Assembly: GCA_018828585.1 (NCBI GenBank) | Contig: JAHJVW010000034.1 | Location: 1 to 64,000, forward strand | Length of the DNA stretch: 64,000 nucleotides | Origin: Bacteroidota bacterium | GTDB lineage: Bacteria; Bacteroidota; Bacteroidia; Sphingobacteriales; Sphingobacteriaceae | Direction of reading: 5' to 3' | In this document: piece after piece, positions 1 to 40,051 of the stretch | Numbering within the stretch: the first letter of the stretch is position 1 | Layout: the number at the start of each line of letters is the position of its first letter | The notes under the pieces: generated by a model | Told to the model about the DNA's origin: nothing | Database searches by the model: none | What the model saw: only the letters and a program-made list of their open reading frames with translations | Made by a program: the position numbers and the translations under genes

Positions 1-225
1 ATAATAGGTTTTAGACTTATCCAGCTTCTCCATTTTATTTATAAAATCAGGAGCCATTACATCCATATTTTTAGCGCCTAGCAAACTACCTGATTGATAT
101 TCACCAAGAGTGCGCACATCTAAGAGCACATGGCTTTTATCTGCTAAATATTGAGTTTTGAATTCCTGACCATCAAGATCACCTTCTTTCTTTTTAAAAA
201 ATAGATCAAACATTTTCTTTATCAT
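1..225 (-). CDS. rhodanese-like domain protein (partial, runs off window start)
   Basis: Reverse-strand reading MIKKMFDLFFKKKEGDLDGQEFKTQYLADKSHVLLDVRTLGEYQSGSLLGAKNMDVMAPDFINKMEKLDKSK...; LLDVRT..EY..G...GAKN is rhodanese-like. Confidence 0.75.
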   Translation of the reverse strand, partial: MIKKMFDLFFKKKEGDLDGQEFKTQYLADKSHVLLDVRTLGEYQSGSLLGAKNMDVMAPDFINKMEKLDKSKTYY

Positions 226-239
226 TTTTAGTTAAAAAA

Positions 240-1658
240 TTATTTTAAAGTACTTGGACAAACAAACGCAGTTGTCTTCAATTTCCCACTGTCTTGAATC
301 GCTTTAAATCCACCCGCCACATCAATTAAATTATCAAAACCTCTAGCTCTTAAGGTAGAATTGAAAATCATGGAACGATAACCGCCCGCACAATGCACAT
401 AGTAGGTTTTGTCTTTATCTATTTGTGCCATGCTATCATTGATATAATCTAAAGGTAAATTGATTGCTTCTTCAACATGCTCACTTTGATATTCGCTTCC
501 TTTTCTTACGTCCACCAAGTTGATGGTTTCTTTATCCATGATATTGGCCAATTCATCTGCTGTAATAGATTTAATAAAATCCACTTCCATTCCTGAATTT
601 TTCCAAGCTTTAAAACCCCCGCTTAAATATCCGATGGTATGGTCATAACCTACTCTGGCCAAACGAGTAATTACTTCTTCTTCTCTACCTTCATCAGTAA
701 CTAACAGGATTTCTTGTTTGATATCAGTAATCATCGCTCCTACCCATGGCGCAAAATTACCATCAATACCAATGTTGATTGCATTTGGAATAAAGCCTTT
801 AGCAAAAGTTTGAGGATCACGTGTATCTAAAATTAGAGCACCTGATTCATTTGCCACCATTTCAAAATCTGCTGGGTTTAAGGCTTGCTGACCACGTTCT
901 AAAACTTCGTCAATACTTTCGTAGCCATGTATATTCATCATTACATTTAAAGGAAAATAAGCTGGTGGCGGTAAAAGACCATCAGTAACTTCTTTAATGA
1001 ATTCTTCCTTTGTCATATCGGCTCTTAACGCATAGTTAGTTGCTTTTTGATGACCTAAAGTATCGGTGGTTTCTTTACTCATGTTTTTGCCACAAGCGCT
1101 ACCTGCACCATGTGCTGGATAAACGGTAATATCATCTGCCAAAGGCATGATTTTATTTCTTAAAGAATCATAAAGGTGTGAAGCTAGGATATCCTGAGTT
1201 AATTCAGCCACCACTTTTTGAGCTAAATCTGGACGACCAACATCTCCAATAAATAAAGTATCTCCAGAGAATAATGCGACTTCCTTACCTTGCTCATCTT
1301 TTAATAAATAACAAGTGCTTTCCATGGTATGTCCAGGAGTATGCAATACTTTAATGCTGATATTTCCCAATTTAAATTCCTGACCATCTTTTGCACTGAT
1401 GAAATCAAAATCTGGTTTTGCATTTGGACCATAAACAATAGGTGCTCCTGATTTTTCAGAAAGATCTAAGTGACCTGAAACAAAATCAGCATGGAAATGC
1501 GTTTCAAAAACATATTTGATGACTGCATCATTTTTAGCCGCTCTATCTAAATAAGGCTGTACTTCTCTTAATGGATCAATAATAGCAGCTTCGCCGTTGC
1601 TTTCGATGTAGTATGCACCTTGTGCTAAACATCCTGTATAAATTTGTTCTATAATCAT
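240..1658 (-). CDS. MBL-fold hydrolase with two C-terminal rhodanese domains (persulfide dioxygenase-like)
   Basis: THFHADFVSGH metal motif, HTPGHT, FSGDTLFIGDVGRPDL; C-terminal rhodanese domain with catalytic-type YYVHCAGGYRS. Confidence 0.9.
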   Translation of the reverse strand: MIIEQIYTGCLAQGAYYIESNGEAAIIDPLREVQPYLDRAAKNDAVIKYVFETHFHADFVSGHLDLSEKSGAPIVYGPNAKPDFDFISAKDGQEFKLGNISIKVLHTPGHTMESTCYLLKDEQGKEVALFSGDTLFIGDVGRPDLAQKVVAELTQDILASHLYDSLRNKIMPLADDITVYPAHGAGSACGKNMSKETTDTLGHQKATNYALRADMTKEEFIKEVTDGLLPPPAYFPLNVMMNIHGYESIDEVLERGQQALNPADFEMVANESGALILDTRDPQTFAKGFIPNAINIGIDGNFAPWVGAMITDIKQEILLVTDEGREEEVITRLARVGYDHTIGYLSGGFKAWKNSGMEVDFIKSITADELANIMDKETINLVDVRKGSEYQSEHVEEAINLPLDYINDSMAQIDKDKTYYVHCAGGYRSMIFNSTLRARGFDNLIDVAGGFKAIQDSGKLKTTAFVCPSTLK

Positions 1659-1708
1659 CGCTTTAATTTATTTTGTTAATCAAAGATGCGGCTTTCATCA
1701 AACAAAAA

Positions 1709-1726
1709 AGGTGACCTAAGTCACCT
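1709..1726. promoter_or_regulatory. candidate Crp/Fnr-type operator AGGTGAC-CTAA-GTCACCT upstream of the MBL/rhodanese gene
   Basis: Perfect inverted repeat with CRP-like architecture GTGA-N6-TCAC, matched by a second copy at 3270-3285. Confidence 0.75.
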
Positions 1727-1748
1727 AGCAATTTTTTATTGGGAAATC

Positions 1749-2195
1749 TTAAATAAATGGAAAAAACCGCCTCGTACGTTGTTGATATTGGGTATAGGTT
1801 GGGAATTTATTTTTCAATAAATTTTCTTCGTAAGAAGATTTGAAATAGAATAATATTAGTAATGAAATAGCAATGAATAGGCGATATTCATTTTCGCTAT
1901 AAATGGCAAATCCAAAAACAAAAAGAATGATACCGCTATAAATTGGATGTCGCATCCATTTATAAAGACCGTTGGTAACAAGCTCGCTATTTGTTTTTGG
2001 TGTTGGAAAAGGAGAAAGGTTTTTATTGAGTTGTAGTAAAGCTAAAGCAAGTATAATTCCTCCTGAAATCCCAATTATCAAACCTACATCAATCAGCCAT
2101 AAAGGGAAACTAAAAAAACCTATTGGAAATACAAATGCGTAACCTATAAAAAGGGTGAACTGGATTGCTACATATATAATATCCTTAATCTTCAC
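1749..2195 (-). CDS. isoprenylcysteine carboxyl methyltransferase / PEMT-like integral membrane protein
   Basis: GLYKWMRHPIYSGIILFVFGFAI...YEENLLKNKFPTYTQYQQRTRRFFPFI, typical of the ICMT/PEMT family. Confidence 0.8.
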   Translation of the reverse strand: MKIKDIIYVAIQFTLFIGYAFVFPIGFFSFPLWLIDVGLIIGISGGIILALALLQLNKNLSPFPTPKTNSELVTNGLYKWMRHPIYSGIILFVFGFAIYSENEYRLFIAISLLILFYFKSSYEENLLKNKFPTYTQYQQRTRRFFPFI

Positions 2196-2206
2196 CCTTT
2201 TTTAAT

Positions 2207-2413
2207 TTAATCCGTTTTAGTTCTTGGTTTAACTTCACAAGAGCCTGACATGGCGCAAGAAGAAACATTCCAGATACTTTGATAAAAGAATAAGGCCGCT
2301 AATAAAAACAATAAATATTCATGCAAATCAACCGCCTGATAGCAGATGTAAATAGCGACAATCAATTTAATTGCTCGCATAAAATTCCAATCTTTTAAAA
2401 CTCTCTCTCTCAT
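2207..2413 (-). CDS. small membrane protein (DUF2892/YgaP-like)
   Basis: 68 aa with two hydrophobic segments and C-terminal CAMSGSC; sits between tauE-like and ICMT-like genes. Confidence 0.55.
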   Translation of the reverse strand: MRERVLKDWNFMRAIKLIVAIYICYQAVDLHEYLLFLLAALFFYQSIWNVSSCAMSGSCEVKPRTKTD

Positions 2414-2420
2414 CTCTATC

Positions 2421-3224
2421 CTATTTTAAAAATAATTCTTTAACAATGATATAGCAACCCATTATCAACACAAAATAACCAAATCCTTTTTTCAGTTTGC
2501 TACCATCAATCTTCTTTCCGATAAACCCACCAATAAAAATCCCTGCAATTGCTATAGCGGTAATTTCTGATAAAAATACCCAATCCATTTTAAAATGACC
2601 TAAATCTCCGGTGAAACCTAGAAGTGAATTCATGGCTATAATTAGTAAAGAAGTCCCTACGGCTTCTTTCATTGGTAAACCCATCAAAATGACTAAAGTC
2701 GGGATTAATAAAAAACCCCCACCAGCGCCTAATAAACCAGTAACAATTCCAATTGCAATTCCATAAATCATCAATTTACCAATTTTCCCTTCACCGGGTT
2801 TTACAGCATTTTCATCTGCCTTTTGTTGGCCATTTCTAATCATCGCGGTAGCTGCTGCTACCATTAAAACGGCAAATAAAACCATGGTAAGAATATTCTC
2901 AGTCACAACAAAATCTCCAACAGTAAAAATTTCTTTTGGGATGATAGGAATAACGAACTTACGAGTAATGAAAACAGTAATGATGGATGAAACTCCAAAC
3001 AGCAAGGCTGTTTTTACATTCACAAATCCTTTTTTTAAGTTATTGAGAGCTCCCACTAAACTGGTAGAGCCTACAATAAATAAGGAATAAGAGGTAGATA
3101 ATAAAGGACTTACCCCAAATAGATACACGAGAACGGGCACTGTTAATATAGATCCTCCGCCACCTATTAACCCTAACGAAATTCCAATTAATGCTGAAGC
3201 GAGATACGCGAAAATAATTTCCAT
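2421..3224 (-). CDS. sulfite exporter TauE/SafE family protein
   Basis: GISLGLIGGGGSILTVPVLVYLFG and GIVTGLLGAGGGFLLIPTLVILMGLPMKEAVGTSLLIIAMNS duplicated TauE motifs. Confidence 0.92.
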   Translation of the reverse strand: MEIIFAYLASALIGISLGLIGGGGSILTVPVLVYLFGVSPLLSTSYSLFIVGSTSLVGALNNLKKGFVNVKTALLFGVSSIITVFITRKFVIPIIPKEIFTVGDFVVTENILTMVLFAVLMVAAATAMIRNGQQKADENAVKPGEGKIGKLMIYGIAIGIVTGLLGAGGGFLLIPTLVILMGLPMKEAVGTSLLIIAMNSLLGFTGDLGHFKMDWVFLSEITAIAIAGIFIGGFIGKKIDGSKLKKGFGYFVLIMGCYIIVKELFLK

Positions 3225-3269
3225 CTTTAAATAATTTAAACAAAAATGGAGATTACATTAAGCTAAAAA

Positions 3270-3285
3270 GGTGACCAAAGTCACC
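3270..3285. promoter_or_regulatory. candidate Crp/Fnr-type operator GGTGAC-CAAA-GTCACC upstream of the tauE-like gene
   Basis: Same palindrome as 1710-1725, at the same offset from a CATnTTTG -10-like box. Confidence 0.75.
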
Positions 3286-3292
3286 CAGCTAT

Positions 3293-3931
3293 TTATTTAA
3301 GCCATTCGATGCTGTTTCTGTGAAGTAGAACTTCCCCTCTTTGCTCTAATTTCTTTAATAATCTGGAAATTACTTCACGAGAAGAGTTTAAATCATTTGC
3401 AATTTCTTGATGAGTGATATTTAATTCGCGATTCTTAGATTTTTTATATTGATTTTTTAGATAAAACAACAAACGTTCATCCAATGCTTTAAAGGCAATG
3501 CTATCCAAAACCATTAAAAGCTCTTCGAAACGATTACGATAGGTTTCCAAAACAAAATAATACCATGTTTTATATTCCCGCATCAGTTGATCCATCATGG
3601 CAATAGGTATGGTTAATGCTTTGGTGTTTTCAACAGATTTAGCTTTAATTTGGCTTGTTTCCTGTTTGGTAGCACAAATTAATGAAAGTGCGCAGGCATC
3701 GCCTGGCTCTAAATAGTACATAAAAAATTCATCCCCTTCATCTCCCTCTCTATACAATTTCACTTTTCCTTCTACTATCAGCATGGTGGAGCGGAAATAT
3801 TGCCCTGTTTCCATCATCATTTCACCATCAGTAAAATCTTTTATGGAGGCAATTTCTATCAGCTTAGTTTTAAGTGCAGGCTCAAACTGAGGGAATAACT
3901 GATCTATATAATGTGAAACTTCTTGACTCAT
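3293..3931 (-). CDS. Crp/Fnr family transcriptional regulator
   Basis: N-terminal cyclic-nucleotide-binding-like domain; C-terminal HTH ITHQEIANDLNSSREVISRLLKKLEQRGEV. Confidence 0.92.
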   Translation of the reverse strand: MSQEVSHYIDQLFPQFEPALKTKLIEIASIKDFTDGEMMMETGQYFRSTMLIVEGKVKLYREGDEGDEFFMYYLEPGDACALSLICATKQETSQIKAKSVENTKALTIPIAMMDQLMREYKTWYYFVLETYRNRFEELLMVLDSIAFKALDERLLFYLKNQYKKSKNRELNITHQEIANDLNSSREVISRLLKKLEQRGEVLLHRNSIEWLK

Positions 3932-3937
3932 GTTTAT

Positions 3938-5536
3938 TTATTTGGCTAGCATTTCCCATTCTGATGTTTCGTGGAAACTGATTTCAGGAAATTGTTTAAT
4001 TGCATAATCAATATCAAATTGAGATCCCGCTAAAAATACAGGTTTATTTTCTTTATCGTAAGCAGTTTTTTGATGGTAACGTTGGGTGAATTTTTCCAGT
4101 TCTTCGCTTGAAGTTGCTGACACCCACATGGCTTTGGAAGTGTTCATGTGACGGAAAATACAAGAAGCGCCATATTCATTTTTTAATCTGAACTGTATTA
4201 CTTCAAATTGTAGTTCTCCTACCGTACCAATAATTTTTCGGTTTCCCGGATTTTGGATAAACAATTGTGCTACTCCTTCATCACTTAATTGGTGAATCCC
4301 TTTTTCCAATTGCTTGGTTTTCATGGGGTCAGTATTTTCCAGTTCTTTAAAAATTTCGGGAGAGAAACTTGGAATTCCTACATATTGTAAAGCTTCTCCC
4401 TCTGTTAAAGTATCCCCAATTTTAAAATTCCCTGAATCGTACAAGCCCACCACATCACCAGGGAAAGCCTCTTCAACCAAACTTTTGCTATCTGCCATAA
4501 AACTGGTAGGTGAAGCAAATTTTAATTTCTTATTCAGTCGGTTATGCTGGTAAAAAGTATTACGTTCAAATTTACCCGAAACAATGCGACAAAATGCAAT
4601 TCTATCCCGGTGATTAGGATCTAAATTGGCGTGTATCTTAAAAATAAAACCAGTGAATTTATTTTCTATCGGTTCCACTTTACGAGAATCGGTCTCTCGG
4701 CCTTGCGGCGATGGTGCGATTTTAATGAAGGTTTCTAATAGTTCCTGTACCCCAAAATTATTGATCGCACTGCCAAAAAAAACTGGAGCCAAATATCCTG
4801 AAAGGTATAAATCCCTATCAAAAGGTTCGGCAACTGCCTCAATCAATTCTACTTCTTCTCTTAACTTATTTGCCATTTTATCACCTACCAATTCATCAAC
4901 TTTTTTATCATTTAAATCGTTAATGGTAATTAAATCGTCGGCAATATGCTTCTTATTGGCACTAAAAAGATTTAAACTTTTATTATTGAGCTGATAAACT
5001 CCTTTGAAAGAGTGTCCAATACCAATTGGCCAACTTAATGGTCGGGTGGATATGTTCAACTCTTTTTCTAACTCTTCTAACAAATCGAATGGGTCTTTAC
5101 CTTCCCTATCCATTTTATTGATAAAGATGATCACTGGCGTATGGCGCATTCTACAAACCTGCATCAACTTTTTAGTCTGCTCCTCTACCCCCTTCACACA
5201 GTCAACCACTAAAATCACCGAATCTACAGCCGTTAAAGTACGGTAAGTATCTTCAGCAAAATCCTTGTGACCCGGTGTATCCAAAATATTGATTTTGGTA
5301 TTCAGATACTCAAATCCCATGACAGAGGTTGCTACAGAAATACCACGCTGCTTTTCAATCTCCATAAAATCCGAAGTTGCAGCTTTATCAGCCTTATTGC
5401 TTTTTACGGCTCCTGCCTTTTGAATTGCACCTCCAAAAAGCAATAACTTTTCGGTTAACGTAGTTTTTCCTGCATCGGGGTGACTGATGATTCCGAATGT
5501 TCTTCTTTTGGCTATTTCCTGCTGTAGTGTACTCAT
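3938..5536 (-). CDS. prfC: peptide chain release factor 3
   Basis: [32 protein letters not shown]...[24 protein letters not shown]3 GTPase signature; about 530 aa. Confidence 0.96.
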
Positions 5537-38298: not shown

Positions 38299-39122
38299 TA
38301 TTTCTTCCTCCTAGCTATGATGAAACGATTTGAGTATTTCTTCTTATCACGGGTTTTGAAACCTTTTGACAATAACCCTTTTCTTGAACGTGGGTGACCA
38401 CCTGATGATCTACCCTCACCACCACCCATTGGGTGATCTACTGGGTTCATCGCAACACCTCTTACTCTTGGCCTTCTTCCTAACCAACGTTTTCTTCCAG
38501 CTTTACCTAAAACCTCATTGGCATGTTCTGAGTTTGAAACTGAACCAATAGTAGCAGTACAAGTTACCAAAATCATACGTGTTTCACCTGAAGGCATTTT
38601 CACAGTTGCATATTTACCGTCTCTTGCTGCTAATTGAGCATAAGCACCAGCACTCCTTGCAATTTGTGCACCTCTACCTGGAGTTAATTCAATATTATGA
38701 ATTATTGATCCAAGAGGAATGTTAGCTAATTTGATGTTGTTTCCAACTTCTGGCACAACTGCATCACCTGCAATTACTTTTGATCCAACTTGCAACCCTT
38801 CAGGTGCAACGATGTATCTTTTTTCACCATCAGCATAATGTAACAGCGCAATACGGGCAGTACGATTTGGATCGTATTCTATAGTTGCTACTGTTGCGGG
38901 GATATCTTTTTTGTCGCGTTTAAAATCTATTAATCGGTACAATTGCTTGTGACCCCCACCGATATAACGCATAGTCATTTTACCAGTATTGTTACGACCA
39001 CCCGACTTACTACTTTTTACAGTAAGAGACTTTTCTGGAGTACTTGTAGTAATTTCACTGAAATCACTACCCACTCTGAAACGTGTTCCTGGTGTTACTG
39101 GTTTAAATTTTCTTAAGCCCAT
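38298..39122 (-). CDS. rplB: 50S ribosomal protein L2
   Basis: [15 protein letters not shown]...[24 protein letters not shown]. Confidence 0.98.
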
Positions 39123-39129
39123 AATTCAA

Positions 39130-39420
39130 TTAAATATTGCTATAAAAGTCAATAACTTCACCTTCTTTTAAGGTAATCACTGCTTTTTTAAGTTTTGCAG
39201 CTCTACCTGAAACCATGCCAGCTTTAGTTGATCTTGTTTTTAATTTTCCAACAACAACTGTTGTATTTACTGACGTTACAGTTACACCATACATGGCTTC
39301 TACTGCTGATTTGATTTGTAATTTGTTTGCTCTATGATCACACTGAAAAGTATAACGGTTCAACTTTTCAGTTAACATAGTGGCTTTTTCTGTTAATACA
39401 GGTTTTTTTAAGATTTCCAT
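39130..39420 (-). CDS. rplW: 50S ribosomal protein L23
   Basis: MEILKKPVLTEKATMLTEKLNRYTFQCDHRANKLQIKSAVEAMYGV. Confidence 0.97.
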   Translation of the reverse strand: MEILKKPVLTEKATMLTEKLNRYTFQCDHRANKLQIKSAVEAMYGVTVTSVNTTVVVGKLKTRSTKAGMVSGRAAKLKKAVITLKEGEVIDFYSNI

Positions 39421-39421
39421 A

Positions 39422-40051
39422 TTACTTGGCTAATGCCTCCTCCAATGTTTTTACCGAACCGGTAGTTAATACTAATTTTCCAGCGTTTAATACATCATAT
39501 GTATTTAACTGATCAGCAGTGATTACTTTTGTACCTTGAATATTTCTACTTGATAAGTAAACATTATCATTTGCTGAAGCAAGAACTATTAAAGTTTTTT
39601 GCCCTACAAAATTTAATGCCCCTAATAAGCTGGCAAAGTTTTTAGTTTTTGAAGTTTCGAAATTGAAATCCTCTAAAACTACTACACTGTTATCTTTAAC
39701 TTTATAAGCTAATGCCGATTTACGAGCTAATGCTTTTAGTTTCTTATTTAACTTAAAGCTATAATCACGTGGTTGAGGACCGAAAATTCTACCACCACCA
39801 TTAAATAATGGAGACTTAATACTTCCTGCTCTTGCACCACCTGTTCCTTTTTGCTTGTATAACTTACGGGTAGAACCTGCAATCTCATTACGTTGTTTAG
39901 ACTTATGAGTTCCTTGACGCTGATTAGCTAAAAACTGTTTTACATCTAAGTAAATAGCATGATCATTTGGTTCGATACCGAAGATATCCTCAGAAAGCTG
40001 CACCTTGGCACCTGTTTCTTTACCTGAGACGTTTAATACTTTAACTTCCAT
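39422..40051 (-). CDS. rplD: 50S ribosomal protein L4
   Basis: [43 protein letters not shown]. Confidence 0.97.

Follow-up and report, generated by a model that had tools for sequence, protein, structure and literature searches.

A probable new Crp/Fnr subfamily predicted to activate sulfide and persulfide oxidation genes as a class II regulator across Bacteroidota

Genes, operators and promoters at the start of the window

The window (the whole stretch of DNA analysed, 64,000 nucleotides) opens with a block of genes that all lie on the minus strand and include a Crp/Fnr-family regulator and two operons (Table 1). The MBL-rhodanese protein of operon 1 has 3tp9 ('beta-lactamase and rhodanese domain protein') as its best PDB match, followed by 3r2u, both over the full length. 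Its HxHxD motif is present and, of the two rhodanese domains, the first is without the Cys loop and the second has CAGGYR; this arrangement of an MBL domain, a degenerate rhodanese and an active-type rhodanese is that expected of a CstB-like persulfide dioxygenase-sulfurtransferase. A second MBL-rhodanese copy (C119:21081-22478, L273; 65% identical) is found elsewhere in the genome without an operator and also exists in the close relative G005. The incomplete rhodanese gene at the window edge is probably the second gene of operon 1; its PF00581 score falls just under the cut-off because the gene is truncated. In operon 2, the 68-residue membrane protein ends in the tail SSCAMSGSCE. It is a recurrent regulon member in relatives, where its own gene can bear the operator-promoter element described below.

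Table 1. Features of the gene block at the start of the window.
Feature	Position	Strand	Remarks
Single-domain rhodanese gene, start only (window edge)	1-225	-	PF00581, E 0.00036
MBL-rhodanese-rhodanese protein (putative CstB-like persulfide dioxygenase/sulfurtransferase), operon 1	240-1658	-	Pfam Lactamase_B and two Rhodanese stretches
-7-like box of promoter 1	1681-1688	-	CATCTTTG
Operator 1, GGTGAC-N4-GTCACC, before MBL-rhodanese operon	1710-1725	-	Exact match, GGTGACCTAAGTCACC
ICMT/PEMT-like membrane methyltransferase, operon 2	1749-2195	-	PF04191, PF04140
68-aa membrane protein, Cys-containing tail, operon 2	2207-2413	-	Without Pfam family
TauE/SafE sulfite exporter family gene (tauE), first gene of operon 2	2421-3224	-	PF01925, E 1.8e-39
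-7-like box of promoter 2	3241-3248	-	CATTTTTG
Operator 2, GGTGAC-N4-GTCACC, before tauE	3270-3285	-	Exact match, GGTGACCAAAGTCACC; kept in relatives
Crp/Fnr-family regulator, 212 aa	3293-3931	-	Pfam cNMP_binding, HTH_Crp_2 and Crp above cut-off
Recognition helix SSREVISRLL	3356-3385	-	Residues 183-192
Cys86 codon	3674-3676	-	Invariant (81/81) in close family; candidate partner of Cys80
Cys80 codon	3692-3694	-	Invariant (81/81) and kept throughout the aligned wider family; candidate sensor residue
prfC	3938-5536	-	Neighbour of the regulator in the same block

Both palindromes reported in the preliminary description are exact, and the identical promoter geometry claimed for them was confirmed, with TTTG lying exactly 26 nt after the inner palindrome GTGAC-N4-GTCAC in each case. 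Transcription start mapping in Flavobacterium places the sigma-A element TAnnTTTG at -12 to -5 (PMC9723704), and the operator centre therefore falls at -41.5, the classical class II position. The class II assignment thus stands, but the centre near -43 that had accompanied it does not. On this numbering both window promoters appear to have class II geometry, with the operator replacing the upstream core element. With up to two mismatches allowed, the palindrome is expected 0.43 times in the window, and two or more matches arose in six of 100 shuffles; both window copies have no mismatch. The first interpretation presupposed that the palindrome is not common genome-wide, and its perfect form has just two copies in the whole 3.58 Mb genome, both in the window.

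The operator-promoter element in related genomes and its link to the regulator

With the regulator alignment, 80 named loci were found in Pedobacter, Mucilaginibacter, Dyadobacter, Parapedobacter, Chitinophaga and Flavobacteriales. The placement of the window sites, in front of the MBL-rhodanese and tauE operons, recurs in ten relatives whose regulator is at least 70% identical, wherever these genes are present. An unbiased count of all inverted 5-mers (spacers of 0-12) in 132 regions upstream of tauE and MBL-rhodanese homologues, in which the motif was not assumed, put the dyad GTGAC-N4-GTCAC first, in 67 of these regions. GGTGA-N6-TCACC ranked second (12 regions) and is the same site in a shifted register. 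When one mismatch is allowed, GTGAC-N4-GTCAC is present in 116 of the 132 regions, and TTTG follows the operator at an offset of 26 in 108 of these 116 sites and of 27 in six, against a mean of 0.25 at other offsets. Across the related loci (945 kb), the composite GTGAC-N4-GTCAC-N26-TTTG (≤ 1 mismatch) has 151 matches and its reversed control 0. The logo of the sites reads kGTGAC-WWWW-GTCACm, followed by an nAnnTTTG box that mostly lies 14-65 nt before the start codon; nothing is conserved at the -33 position of the aligned promoters. Counts of the perfect 16-mer across relatives are uninformative because the outer base varies. Perfect palindromes inside a coding frame (G018) or with GC-rich spacers unlike the operator (G037, G044 and G048) were treated as chance occurrences.

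The recognition helix SSREVISRLL named in the preliminary description is present with its R-E-x-x-x-R spacing, and R185, E186 and R190 are invariant in all 81 sequences; these residues would give the regulator a CRP-type DNA specificity in which R-E-x-x-x-R reads GTGA. It is established that residue 181 of CRP reads operator base 3. The equivalent position here is residue 186, where Glu pairs with GTGAC and Val with GTAAC: beside distant Val186 homologues, genes of the same types are preceded by GTAAC-N4-GTTAC-N26-TTTG. In exact composites, the base 3 half-sites are 227 G and 29 A at Glu loci versus 0 G and 8 A at Val loci (p = 1e-6 by locus, Fisher test with related loci taken as independent). 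With ≤ 1 mismatch, Val loci give 24 A, 5 T and 0 G, and the reversed control gives 0 in 243 kb. The tree requires at least four Glu/Val changes at residue 186, and G003, with Glu and GTGAC, branches within a group of Val/GTAAC relatives as sister to G048, a reversal in the tree. G050 and G055 are exceptions, having Val186 regulators yet some GTGAC promoters, and a strict Glu/Val-to-base rule was softened owing to them. The operator change that accompanies Glu or Val at residue 186 provides a test, by natural variation, of the classical CRP rule for recognition by residue 181.

Two explanations would dissociate the sites from the neighbouring regulator gene. The first, chance palindromes with coincidental promoter spacing, draws on the genome itself, where palindromes with two mismatches are not enriched (37 sites versus 55 for the reversed control), so that near-perfect sites alone are meaningful; the analysis was accordingly confined to exact or composite ones. 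The composite with ≤ 1 mismatch is likewise not commoner than its control in the own genome alone (5 versus 4), and significance therefore has to come from exact matches and the cross-species comparison. This comparison refutes chance by the conservation, the fixed spacing and the empty control in 945 kb, and we regard the explanation as practically untenable. The other possibility, that another regulator binds the palindrome and the gene at 3293-3931 is a mere neighbour, draws on the five Crp/Fnr-type proteins above the Pfam cut-off that the genome encodes and on G022, a 1.7 Mb genome with an exact operator-promoter element before its MBL-rhodanese gene (C1:44384-44427, L153) and no detected regulator homologue. 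However, among the proteins of this genome that contain a cNMP-binding domain, the window regulator alone has the R-E-x-x-x-R helix, and the motif tracks its orthologue. In a comparison of 60 genomes by regulator status (≤ 1 mismatch, reversed control), those with a close orthologue held 51 composites versus 13 in the control, those with distant homologues 39 versus 22 and those without a homologue 9 versus 24; the element precedes the MBL-rhodanese gene in 10 of 10 genomes with a close orthologue and in one of nine without a homologue. Since operator base 3 also tracks residue 186 of this same protein, control by another regulator is highly unlikely. Together, the tracking of the regulator by the element and of residue 186 by base 3 points to direct binding of the operator by the window regulator's family.

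Regulon content, candidate sensor and proposed mechanism

Besides the MBL-rhodanese and tauE-smp-icmt targets in the window, the genome has an exact composite before a methyltransferase-rhodanese operon (C53) and composites with one mismatch before a SoxA/TsdA cytochrome with SoxB (C40) and before a DUF2490 protein (C149:66454-66497). The latter site is kept in G005 (C13:4611-4654), and the DUF2490 protein is without a clear sulfur role. A YgaP-TM gene and SQR, adjoining SoxB (C20), carry a two-mismatch element 18 nt upstream of the start codon. In relatives the targets extend to YeeE/YedE, thioredoxin, rhodanese, a CoA-disulfide-reductase-like protein and a DsbD-like protein, and the regulator gene itself carries the element in five loci. 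The proposal of a local sulfur-detoxification regulon under the Crp/Fnr protein therefore holds for its sulfur theme, which the target list bears out, but not for 'local': SQR, SoxA/TsdA-SoxB and the rhodanese operon lie elsewhere, and the regulon is genome-wide. On C53 (about 39000-40050, L135) a YgaP-TM gene that has a weak operator is followed by SQR-like and 5'-nucleotidase/SoxB-like fragments with broken frames, an arrangement that resembles the remains of a second SQR locus. A near-perfect operator, GGTGACCAAAGTCACA, occurs at the very end of a further contig (C18:2-17, L003), so that the assembly stops short of its promoter and target gene.

Pfam matches above cut-off, the predicted model and PDB matches place the regulator in the Crp/Fnr superfamily, with its cNMP-binding-like β-barrel, long dimerisation helix and C-terminal winged helix; the AlphaFold model (pLDDT 84) has the Crp/Fnr fold, and the nearest PDB entry is 3DV8. 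It is not a cAMP-responsive CRP by alignment, in which the cAMP contacts Glu72 and Arg82 are absent, and it scores 54 bits against a cut-off of 266 with the NCBIfam CRP model. The N-terminal [4Fe-4S] Cys cluster of FNR is also absent. In 54 of the 81 sequences (the window protein and 53 others) there are only two Cys residues, both in the sensor region. Cys80 aligns with Ile70 of CRP, and the short helix after it (81-89) contains Cys86. In the tree alignment of 39 homologues with the window protein, Cys80 is kept in all 39 and Cys86 is lost in one distant Val186 clade and two further rows. Genomes of this clade still bear the element at similar genes, and the idea that the Cys pair is essential was dropped because of the loss of Cys86. 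The conserved C80/C86 pair is at most suggestive of a persulfide sensor, a type in which persulfide or polysulfide cross-links at a reactive Cys alter DNA binding.

We consider it very probable that the gene at 3293-3931 encodes an activator that binds GTGAC-N4-GTCAC in class II fashion and governs a sulfide/persulfide/thiosulfate regulon. The regulator would bind the operator as a dimer centred at -41.5, immediately upstream of the -7 box of Bacteroidota sigma-A promoters, where a -33 element would otherwise lie. Because the operator takes the place of that element, recruitment of RNA polymerase as a class II activator is the most likely mode of action, and we infer activation rather than repression. 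Genes for sulfide, persulfide and thiosulfate oxidation and for sulfite export would thereby be switched on. We suggest that reactive sulfur species (persulfide or polysulfide) are sensed at Cys80, next to the part that in CRP forms the phosphate-binding cassette for cAMP, with Cys86 as its partner in the close family. More widely, and as something a little short of an even call, a widespread Bacteroidota Crp/Fnr branch may have turned the cAMP pocket into a cysteine sensor of reactive sulfur that governs a class II regulon, with repeated switches between Glu186/GTGAC and Val186/GTAAC.

The same protein and sites could also serve another logic. Several known persulfide sensors are repressors, and the regulator might block RNA polymerase from -41.5 until reactive sulfur removes it, as with CstR, SqrR and BigR; the class II activator position, the unvarying distance to the -7 box and the lack of a conserved -33 element speak against this, and a repressor would not need the exact helical phasing of 108 of the 116 sites. 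We judge repression to be very unlikely. The main rival concerns the signal, which could be redox state, oxygen, NO or haem, with the sulfur oxidation genes induced because they feed or protect respiration. The Porphyromonas Crp/Fnr protein PgRsp, for which 3DV8 served as the modelling template, is a haem binder that has been termed redox-sensing (PMC6955866). Since the structure most similar to the window regulator is likewise 3DV8, and the targets in relatives include thioredoxin and DsbD-like genes, haem or redox sensing has some appeal. However, sulfide, persulfide and thiosulfate genes dominate the targets, among which no respiratory or nitrosative genes were found, the FNR-type Cys cluster is missing from the regulator, and Cys76 of PgRsp was not needed for haem (PMC6955866). 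We therefore rate a redox, oxygen, NO or haem signal as rather unlikely and favour activation by reactive sulfur.

Relation to known regulators

The first interpretation of this locus is supported overall by the dyad enumeration, the fixed spacing, the co-occurrence with the regulator and the covariation of residue 186 with base 3. Judged from these sequence comparisons, the regulator probably represents a new Crp/Fnr subfamily that acts as a class II activator of sulfide and persulfide oxidation across Bacteroidota. No description of the regulator, nor of the control of these sulfur enzymes in Bacteroidota, was found in the open literature searched; the bacterial regulators known to respond to reactive sulfur come from the CsoR, ArsR and sigma-54 families. 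What our analysis adds is an operator with an invariant promoter layout, residues that may act as the sensor, and lists of targets in named, culturable species (Pedobacter, Dyadobacter and Mucilaginibacter).

HcpR (Porphyromonas, PDB 9day), which controls nitrosative stress, and FNR share the Crp/Fnr fold with the window regulator, from which FNR differs by its N-terminal [4Fe-4S] Cys set. PgRsp (Porphyromonas gingivalis) and 3DV8 (Eubacterium rectale) are likewise Crp/Fnr proteins of ∼ 210 residues. 3DV8 has Cys at both positions aligned with Cys80 and Cys86, and PgRsp has Cys76; PgRsp binds haem and is linked to oxidative stress and virulence, and the passages of its study that were consulted (PMC6955866) do not describe a sulfur operator. 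The target set itself (SQR, persulfide dioxygenase-rhodanese, TauE and YeeE/YedE) is that of the CstR, SqrR/BigR and FisR regulons. CstR controls this toolkit in Staphylococcus (PMC8148161), and FisR and BigR do so in Acinetobacter (PMC7315123). CstR is CsoR-like, SqrR/BigR are ArsR-type and FisR is a sigma-54 activator, whereas here the regulator is a Crp/Fnr protein. With Escherichia coli CRP it has in common the GTGA-N6-TCAC operator, the R-E-x-x-x-R helix and the centre at -41.5; it differs in lacking the cAMP contacts, in its sulfur targets and in its promoters, which have the -7 box of Bacteroidota rather than a -10 element.
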